DNA from: Bacteroidota bacterium
Lineage (GTDB): Bacteria > Bacteroidota > Bacteroidia > Palsa-965
Reading direction: 5' to 3'
DNA: 64,000 nt
Assembly: GCA_006218065.1 (NCBI GenBank)
Contig: VBWE01000001.1
Coordinates: 255,063-319,062 of the forward strand
The notes under the pieces were generated by a model. That model was not told where the DNA came from and did not search any database. It saw only the letters and a program-made list of their open reading frames with translations. Each line of letters opens with the position of its first letter. Within the stretch, counting starts at the first letter, position 1. Both the position numbers and the translations under genes were made by a program. Below are positions 35,759-55,032 of the stretch, one piece after another.

Positions 35759-35827
35759 CCGATAATTAGGGATGGATAGAATGACAGTCCCGATAGCTAT
35801 CGGGACCGGTTCTGTTGGTTGGGGGGG
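35759..35827 (+). pseudogene. Degenerate tRNA-Arg copy interrupted by an 18-bp palindrome
   Basis: TGGATAGAATGACAG (35773-35787) and CCGGTTCTGTTGGTTGGGGG (35806-35825) are identical to 35883-35897 and 35901-35920 of the intact tRNA-Arg. Between them, the three anticodon-loop bases ATT are replaced by TCCCGATAGCTATCGGGA (35788-35805), a perfect palindrome. The stretch CCGATAATTAGGGA just before may be a decayed acceptor/D-arm. The T-arm's 3' half and the 3' acceptor strand are missing, so it cannot fold as a tRNA. Confidence 0.65.
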
Positions 35828-35866
35828 AATTAAAAATACAAGTATTAAAATTTATCGTTCTTTTTT

Positions 35867-35940
35867 GGCTCCGTAGTTCAACTGGATAGAATGACAGATT
35901 CCGGTTCTGTTGGTTGGGGGTTCGAATCCCTCCGGAGTCA
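35867..35940 (+). tRNA. tRNA-Arg (anticodon CCG)
   Basis: 74 bases. Acceptor GGCTCCG/CGGAGTC (one G-T pair) with discriminator A; D-arm GTTC/GAAT; anticodon stem ACAGA/TCTGT with loop TTCCGGT, anticodon CCG, reading CGG; variable TGGTT; T-arm GGGGG-TTCGAAT-CCCTC. CCA is not encoded. Confidence 0.92.
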
Positions 35941-35945
35941 CGGAT

Positions 35946-36119
35946 GAATCGCACACAGGCCACGGCGTTAGTCGTGGTCTTTTGCTTTTCATGCAGGCGG
36001 CGAAAGCCCGAAGGGATTTTGACGAACGTGTGAAAAGCAAAAGATGCGCCCGGCAGGGAGCGCCTGTGTTGGATTCACAATGCTGCGTATACCGGGATAT
36101 GCAATCCTTCCGGAGTCAC
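35946..36119. repeat. Nested inverted-repeat element after tRNA-Arg, ending in a copy of the tRNA 3' end
   Basis: Outer arms GAATCGCACACAGGC (35946-35960) and GCCTGTGTTGGATTC (36062-36076), 13 of 15 paired; inner arms CTTTTGCTTTTCA (35979-35991) and TGAAAAGCAAAAG (36031-36043), perfect. At 36103-36119, AATCCTTCCGGAGTCAC repeats the tRNA 3' end AATCCCTCCGGAGTCAC (35925-35941) with one change, preceded by a six-pair hairpin GCGTAT/ATATGC (36084-36101). Together with flanking sequence this fills the 325-base gap before the next gene; no coding region is visible. Confidence 0.55.
35960..35983 (+). terminator. Probable terminator after tRNA-Arg
   Basis: CCACG-GCGTTAGT-CGTGG followed by TCTTTT. 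The stem is only five base pairs, so it is modest. Confidence 0.45.
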
Positions 36120-54450: not shown

Positions 54451-54642
54451 ATGTCTGTAAAACAATGTTCCCGCTGCGGTAAAAATTTCGATTGCTGCAA
54501 CGAAACGCGGGGGTGCTGGTGCGAGAACTATTCGCTTTCGGCAGAAACATTGAAGGAGCTCCGGGAGAAATACAGCAATTGTCTTTGTGAAAAATGCCTG
54601 GCGGAGTTCGCGGAAAAACCGGCCACAGGTTTCGCAGATTAG
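54451..54642 (+). CDS. Cysteine-rich CWC domain protein
   Basis: 63 residues: MSVKQCSRCGKNFDCCNETRGCWCENYSLSAETLKELREKYSNCLCEKCLAEFA. The CxRCGxxFxC...CWC...CLCxxCL pattern is the Cys_rich_CWC family, presumably zinc-binding. Starts two bases after folB and probably shares its transcript. Function unknown. Confidence 0.82.
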   Translation: MSVKQCSRCGKNFDCCNETRGCWCENYSLSAETLKELREKYSNCLCEKCLAEFAEKPATGFAD

Positions 54643-54702
54643 CACAGATTTTTTTATGCACCGGGAGTTTAAATGAGCGGCTTTGCATTTTCCCGTTTTT
54701 AT

Positions 54703-54710
54703 TACCTTTG
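54703..54710 (+). promoter_or_regulatory. Promoter of the tRNA-Cys locus
   Basis: TACCTTTG, an exact TAnnTTTG -7 box, with TTTG at 54682-54685 as a possible -33 element. It is placed normally relative to the broken tRNA 5' copy at 54726, not to the intact tRNA 89 bases further on. Confidence 0.6.
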
Positions 54711-54725
54711 TCTTCCTTTGAAAAA

Positions 54726-54773
54726 GGTCCTGTGGCCGTCCGCCTACGCCAAGGCTTCGGCGGATGAAGTGGC
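54726..54773 (+). pseudogene. tRNA-Cys 5'-end copy interrupted by a hairpin insert
   Basis: GGTCCTGTGGCCG (54726-54738) equals the first 13 bases of the intact tRNA-Cys, and AGTGGC (54768-54773) continues it. Between them sit 29 bases (54739-54767) forming TCCGCC/GGCGGA with an inner GCC/GGC. The insertion falls in what would be the D-loop. After AGTGGC similarity ends. Confidence 0.6.
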
Positions 54774-54814
54774 CACATTTTTGGAAAACGGGTTATGTTC
54801 TTTAAATAAAATCA

Positions 54815-54885
54815 GGTCCTGTGGCCGAGTGGCTAGGCTCAGCTCTGCAAAAGCTGCTACAGCGGTTCGAATCCGCTCGGGACCT
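54815..54885 (+). tRNA. tRNA-Cys (anticodon GCA)
   Basis: 71 bases. Acceptor GGTCCTG/CGGGACC (one T-G pair), discriminator T as expected for Cys; D-stem GCC/GGC; anticodon stem CAGCT/AGCTG with loop CTGCAAA, anticodon GCA; T-arm AGCGG-TTCGAAT-CCGCT. CCA is not encoded. The cytosine at loop position 32 is noted because a ttcA-type gene lies just downstream. Confidence 0.93.
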
Positions 54886-54949
54886 CGGATAAACAGCGAG
54901 GCGTTTTATATATCTTCGCTGTTCCCTGTTTTAGGGAGATGGAACTACT

Positions 54950-54992
54950 GCGGTTCGTACCGATGACTATCGGGACCGCTCGGGACCTCGGA
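54950..54992 (+). pseudogene. tRNA-Cys 3'-half copy interrupted by an 18-base palindrome-like insert
   Basis: GCGGTTCG (54950-54957) and CCGCTCGGGACCTCGGA (54976-54992) match 54862-54869 and 54873-54889 of the intact tRNA and its 3' flank. The three T-loop bases AAT are replaced by TACCGATGACTATCGGGA (54958-54975), a near-copy of the palindrome in the tRNA-Arg pseudogene. The 60 bases before it form AACAGCGA/TCGCTGTT and TCCCT/AGGGA hairpins. Confidence 0.65.
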
Positions 54993-54997
54993 ATGAA

Positions 54998-55032
54998 AAC
55001 GGTAATCATCTGAAAATGGTTGCCGTTTTTTG
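54998..55032 (+). terminator. Terminator of the tRNA-Cys locus
   Basis: AACGGTAATCA pairs with TGGTTGCCGTT (two wobble pairs), followed by TTTTG. It closes the unit that holds the promoter, both tRNA fragments and the intact tRNA. Confidence 0.65.

Follow-up and report, generated by a model that had tools for sequence, protein, structure and literature searches.

The palindromic elements of Rickettsia are small palindromes that reside within genes, RNA genes included; they are larger than the inserts described below and lie in working genes. A different kind of tRNA-associated repeat is known from the tyrT/RtT system of E. coli, in which tandem repeats starting with the 3′ end of the tRNA follow a tRNA gene, at one locus and with no known loop palindromes or 5′ copies. 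Among palindromes dispersed through bacterial genomes, REPINs form tandem arrays together with their flanks (PMC3116915), and tRNA goes unmentioned in both papers on REP and REPIN sequences (PMC2817692; PMC3116915). Hairpin elements of organelles sit where the RNA can bulge out, as in the variable arm of placozoan trnS (PMC7813641). Partial tRNA genes left behind by integration are common (PMC9897764). In the open-access literature searched we found no description of partial tRNA self-copies that are interrupted by palindromes.

Such copies flank a tRNA-Cys gene of a Bacteroidota bacterium that is alone in its genus and is represented, like the other genomes considered here, by a draft assembly. 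The gene lies in the window, by which we mean the whole 64,000-nucleotide stretch of contig VBWE01000001.1 that was analysed. An initial annotation had placed this tRNA-Cys between two broken copies of itself, each with a palindrome in a loop of the cloverleaf, and the arrangement is borne out by the sequence, by ARAGORN and by Rfam.

Organization of the tRNA-Cys and tRNA-Arg loci

All features of the tRNA-Cys locus are on the + strand. The unit opens with a predicted Bacteroidota-type promoter (54682..54710), assigned from the consensus and from the motif seen in relatives, in which TTTG (54682-54685) is followed by TACCTTTG (54703-54710); the motif TAnnTTTG also precedes the tRNA-Cys genes of relatives at a comparable distance. 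Fifteen bases separate the promoter end from a broken 5′ copy of tRNA-Cys, and the single intact tRNA-Cys of relatives is similarly spaced, in agreement with the earlier proposal that the promoter stands at a normal distance from the broken copy. This copy comprises tRNA positions 1-13, GGTCCTGTGGCCG (54726..54738; 13/13 identity), and positions 14-19, AGTGGC (54768..54773; 6/6 identity), and between these two pieces, in the D-loop, lies a 29-nt palindromic insert, TCCGCCTACGCCAAGGCTTCGGCGGATGA (54739..54767), which consists of a 26-nt hairpin plus TGA and belongs to a family designated E_D. The intact tRNA-Cys(GCA) follows at 54815..54886 (ARAGORN; Rfam, 58.3 bits) and is 100% identical over 72 nt to the tRNA-Cys of the relative G006. 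Beyond it, a broken 3′ copy begins with the variable region, the 5′ strand of the T-stem and the T-loop TTCG (CTACTGCGGTTCG, 54945..54957; 12/13 identity). An 18-nt palindrome of a second family, P, which is dispersed in the genome, then occupies the place of the T-loop AAT (TACCGATGACTATCGGGA, 54958..54975), and the copy resumes with CCGCTCGGGACCTCGGA (54976..54992; 17/17 identity), which runs from the 3′ strand of the T-stem to the tRNA 3′ end (54989) and the flanking GGA. After the broken 3′ copy there is one terminator-like hairpin (54996..55029), an inverted repeat with arms at 54996-55009 and 55016-55029, followed by a T-run. The extents of both copies, the two inserts, the absence of AAT and the single closing terminator are thus as the initial annotation had described them.

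When the tRNA-Cys loci of relatives were compared, as had been proposed, the broken copies proved to be absent or different, and several of these loci share the upstream neighbour folB. In the relatives with folB upstream, judged by eye (e.g., G006), one tRNA-Cys comes right after the promoter and a terminator right after the tRNA. Here, unlike in those relatives, the two broken copies intervene, the 5′ one after the promoter and the 3′ one ahead of the terminator, so that the present state of the locus is derived. The broken copies start about 89 nt to either side of the intact gene and are too close to it to leave room for an integrative element. A short dispersed repeat of the CGCAGATTAGCACAGATT type, present elsewhere in the genome as well, lies at the end of a cysteine-rich ORF upstream of tRNA-Cys (window 54612-54650), and a second, divergent tRNA-Cys(GCA) gene exists in the same genome (G000 contig C78, L093:9138-9210).

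The design of the tRNA-Cys locus is matched at a tRNA-Arg(CCG) locus of the same window (35773-36119, + strand). There, an upstream copy in two pieces of 15 nt (35773-35787) and 20 nt (35806-35825), identical to the tRNA at 35/35 positions, is interrupted in the anticodon loop region by a P palindrome, TCCCGATAGCTATCGGGA (35788-35805), that stands in place of ATT. The intact gene (35867..35941; ARAGORN) follows, and a copy of its 3′ end lies 236 nt past the gene start (36103..36119; 16/17 identity).

Partial tRNA copies and their inserts in this genome and its relatives

What had been reported as a single curious unit is instead a pattern that extends across the genome and the class. Of 57 tRNA genes found, 41 lie outside a tRNA array and were analysed, and 13 of these 41 have a cognate partial copy (exact match of 12 nt or more, no farther than 300 bp away). 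The corresponding match occurs in 0.6% of non-cognate tRNA pairs and in 2.7-3.4% of random 75-bp segments drawn from this genome; hence the self-copies are not due to chance. A scan of the tRNA genes revealed upstream copies at Cys, Arg(CCG), Val, Lys, Gly(GCC), Gly(TCC), Asn, Met, Pro, Ala, Glu, Leu and Thr, and downstream copies at Cys, Arg(CCG), Arg(TCT), Pro, Val, Lys, Gly(TCC), Gln, Met and Glu. The copies are polar, in that those upstream mostly start from base 1 of the tRNA, often together with the leader, and those downstream nearly always reach the tRNA 3′ end, often together with a terminator. This is the expected remnant of partial tandem duplications that extend across one edge of a gene whose intact version survives.

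Two broken 5′ units precede tRNA-Ala and tRNA-Glu. The single transcript with three tRNA-like pieces suggested earlier would be hypothetical, and the Lys, Pro, Gln and Glu loci have a terminator-like hairpin that separates the 3′ copy from the intact gene. Partial copies carry substitutions, and the leaders ahead of a broken and an intact copy are sometimes very different, as at Cys and at tRNA-Leu of G006. Tandem-repeat density as called by TRF gave one match only near tRNAs, and a GTTCTT leader motif is present at 12 of the 41 tRNAs, including some that have no copies. Rfam covariance models run over the broken copies returned no match, the intact tRNAs being the only ones found at the scanned loci. 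In this genome and in G006, G007 and G009, tRNA genes appear rather often to be no more than a few hundred bases away from a contig end, as is expected if flanking copies break assemblies.

Inserts of 12-60 nt split 25 of the copies, and a stem of at least 6 bp is present in 52% of these inserts, compared with 9% of random segments. Among 29 insertion points collected by eye and curated by hand, 24 fall within a loop or junction or at its edge, where 53% would be expected (p=7e-4). The hot spots are the entry of the D-loop and the T-loop after TTCG, and boundary 12-14 alone accounts for 9 of the 29 points against an expectation of 1.2. A genome search with the downstream palindrome of the Cys locus defined the P family as TCCCGATNNNNATCGGGA, an 18-nt sequence that is dispersed over dozens of places. 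P replaces exactly 3 nt of the tRNA in no fewer than seven independent cases (Pro upstream, Pro downstream, Arg-CCG, Cys, Arg-TCT, G006 Phe and G006 Leu); the Pro downstream insert measures 28 nt, with P nested inside a second palindrome. Outside tRNAs, P shows a modest excess at inverted-repeat tips, since 13 of 64 occurrences have a flanking stem of at least 5 bp, compared with 5-7%. The E_D family, TCCNCCTNCGC...GGCGGA (TCCNCC..GGCGGA), is 25-29 nt long and occurs six times in 5.26 Mb. All six occurrences are inside broken 5′ tRNA copies, upstream of the intact cognate gene and in the same orientation, and four of them directly follow TAGCTCA. This confinement is the strangest single fact of the system, and not what one would expect of a generic mobile element. 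Palindromic inserts other than P and E_D also occur.

P is also found in tRNAs that are otherwise complete. An array on contig C9 of this genome (L144:8320-10650) contains some 15 recognised tRNA genes, part of them unusual, together with three further tRNAs, one Gln-like and two Arg-like, that would be complete but for P in the T-loop. No local duplication was found at these three P-bearing tRNAs of the dispensable array, which makes insertion separable from duplication. The array matches phage records over short stretches only, such as single tRNAs, and neither of the two tRNA-palindrome patterns was found in the viral contigs of IMG/VR; a viral or phage origin was rejected on these grounds.

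Four relatives share the partial-copy pattern, with cognate copies at 8/33, 4/33, 3/40 and 2/26 tRNA genes, the last two values being weakly above the random level, and their inserts differ. Tandem units recur there, with four broken 5′ units upstream of tRNA-Leu in G006 and repeated 3′ units downstream of tRNA-Asn in G004 and of tRNA-Met in G102, a member of another family. Of 396 genomes sampled across the phylum, strict patterns matched this one only. With a relaxed T-loop pattern, a search of 247 genomes of the class uncovered nine more genomes from six other families, and most of these matches represent partial 3′ copies that closely follow the intact cognate tRNA (Met, Leu, Thr, Gly and probably Val), although the matches in G513 (f70) and G580 (f59) show no obvious likeness to a tRNA. 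The D-loop design was detected in a Phaeodactylibacter MAG as well (JAGFJD010000147.1). On that sequence (L159), the anticodon loop of a tRNA is split by roughly 330 nt carrying both palindrome families; a group I intron was considered for this case and had no Rfam intron match. A pattern match in Phycisphaerae has no tRNA and is taken as chance.

Scars of the integration type seem to exist at the tRNA-Cys genes of two relatives, where the tRNA 3′ end and its trailer are repeated 1.9 kb downstream in G010 (contig C24, L283) and 8.2 kb downstream in G011 (contig C6, L282). The 8.2-kb stretch of G011 encodes DUF262-like and Fic-like proteins, as judged by eye, which suggests a defence-type island.

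Origin of the interrupted copies

We consider the best reading, at a probability of about 0.5, to be that palindromic elements inserted into the loops of redundant tRNA copies generated by partial tandem duplication. A short duplication across one edge of a tRNA gene would leave the intact gene and a partial copy, the upstream copies bringing the leader and 5′ half and the downstream copies the 3′ half and terminator. Small palindromic hairpin elements, P and E_D among them, would then enter the dispensable copies, in most cases at the entry of the D-loop, in the anticodon loop or in the T-loop after TTCG, and often with exactly 3 loop nt replaced. Loops exposed in a single-stranded cloverleaf would be the preferred targets, and insertion would be tolerated in the copies and not in the intact gene, which selection would retain because it is essential, while the copies decay and are re-made. 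On this account the palindromes would be mobile and would recognise hairpin loops, perhaps in single-stranded DNA, duplication would usually come first, and the copies would be neutral. The account retains the earlier suggestion that palindromes lie in the loops of duplicated tRNA pieces beside a conserved intact copy, one of the palindromes being a dispersed repeat; it departs from the idea of two decayed whole copies, since partial tandem duplications fit better the 5′ copy with its leader and the 3′ copy with its terminator. It leaves the high number of partial duplications at tRNA genes without explanation, and no mobilising enzyme could be linked to the palindromes. A miniature element specific for tRNA loops, which would insert a hairpin into a D-, anticodon or T-loop and by the same mechanism restore an adjacent intact gene, and could thereby invade essential single-copy tRNA genes, seems to us unlikely.

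The main rival of insertion into redundant copies is an origin in one step, in which fork or repair synthesis stalls at tRNA hairpins and switches template to a distant palindrome and back, yielding duplication and insert together. Many loci do have palindrome and duplication together, the inserts cluster at hairpin loops, and the strongly different leaders at Cys and G006 Leu also speak for it, but several switches would be needed, as the same tRNA resumes after the insert (e.g., Lys positions 15-29) before the junction. The array tRNAs that bear P without duplication also speak against a single step, and the separability of insertion that they reveal favours the entry of hairpins into redundant copies; the one-step origin is a possible but doubtful explanation. 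Somewhat harder to credit is integration, whereby tyrosine integrases crossing over in the anticodon or T-loop would have left displaced tRNA ends. The 3′ copies often begin at the T-loop and span from there to the gene end, as attachment blocks would, and the repeats at tRNA-Cys of G010 and G011 resemble those of an integrative element. Upstream 5′ copies with leaders do not fit this account, nor do tRNA sequence on both sides of a palindrome, tandem arrays with terminators, and distances that are usually below 300 bp with no element between, and we regard such an origin as improbable. An assembly artefact or chance similarity is scarcely credible: many tRNA loci do lie near contig ends, yet the flanks are unique, the assemblies independent and the inserts different, and the non-cognate and random-segment controls fall far below 13/41.

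The copies might instead act as RNA. A 5′ mimic with its hairpin, with or without the 3′ mimic, could regulate the folding, maturation or transcription of the tRNA, or could serve as bait for tRNA-cutting nucleases. The exclusive placement of E_D, its single orientation and its fourfold position right after TAGCTCA would suit such a role, as would the retention of the 5′ copy between promoter and gene at Cys, Arg and other loci. Folding in silico predicts that only one of two identical 5′ strands can pair with the single 3′ strand at a time, and at 6/7 loci the broken 5′ strand is a competitor of the intact one for the 3′ acceptor strand (0.84-0.99), so that the copies may not be neutral; if it occurs in the cell, this competition would affect tRNA maturation. 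Copies and inserts nevertheless vary between relatives, many tRNAs have none, the copies carry substitutions, and the spacer complementarity at Cys is not significant, being reached by 8.5% of shuffles. The variation and the substitutions argue for turnover rather than conserved function and point to a recurrent mutational or selfish process; a functional leader or decoy RNA is rather unlikely. The idea that the hairpin insert insulates the intact tRNA and so lets it fold was rejected, as removal of the insert in silico changes almost nothing. It is very improbable that the locus is a nested design with the intact tRNA at the tip of an outer pseudo-tRNA built from the two broken halves. The MFE fold of the Cys unit does pair the outer acceptor strands (first five pairs, each at a probability of 0.99-1.0) around a foldable intact tRNA; this pairing follows from both pieces being tRNA-derived, however, that of the spacers is not significant, and elsewhere the gene and its 3′ copy are separated by a terminator-like hairpin.

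tRNA genes are usually regarded as conserved and clean except for integration scars. Here about one third of those in one genome have self-derived partial copies, many of them split by hairpins, and the phenomenon recurs across Bacteroidia; it looks like a recurrent, apparently undescribed route by which tiny palindromes and local duplications accumulate around essential RNA genes. If the palindromes are mobile, selfish hairpins would exploit the loops of RNA folds in bacteria, as they seemingly do in organelles, and active copies would make possible a new level of control over tRNAs, or decoys. The copies are also relevant to the annotation of tRNAs and may be the reason why contigs break at tRNA genes.

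Comparison with described elements

The elements of Rickettsia differ from the present inserts in their hosts, which here are dispensable partial tRNAs beside an intact gene. The E. coli tyrT/RtT repeats resemble the downstream 3′ copies and differ in having no known loop palindromes or 5′ copies. A tRNA or group I intron was rejected as an explanation because the copies are without one tRNA half, P replaces loop bases, and there is no Rfam intron match.

Integrative elements likewise leave displaced tRNA ends near an intact gene, as documented for Islander and in related work (PMC4383910; PMC9897764), but in those cases the element lies between the two, no palindrome occupies a loop, and upstream 5′ copies with a leader are absent. 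REP and REPIN sequences associated with RAYT are dispersed and share with P and E_D the character of short, GC-rich palindromes that form hairpins and occur in tandem arrays including their flanks (PMC2817692; PMC3116915). P is present at dozens of places, whereas E_D is not dispersed. No common tetranucleotide head of the GT(A/G)G kind was seen at P sites, which were judged by eye, and REPs driven by RAYT were rejected as a model, the two Y1-type transposase genes of the genome (L260 and L261) having neither P nor E_D within the surrounding 3.2 kb.

The hairpin elements of sponge and placozoan organelles are likewise present in intergenic DNA and in RNA genes (PMC2800124; PMC7813641). They differ in being organellar, and the available portions of both reports describe no partial tRNA self-copies on either side. 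In their way of working, the palindromes in tRNA loops would resemble the mobile hairpins that have been proposed for the DNA of organelles (PMC2800124; PMC7813641).
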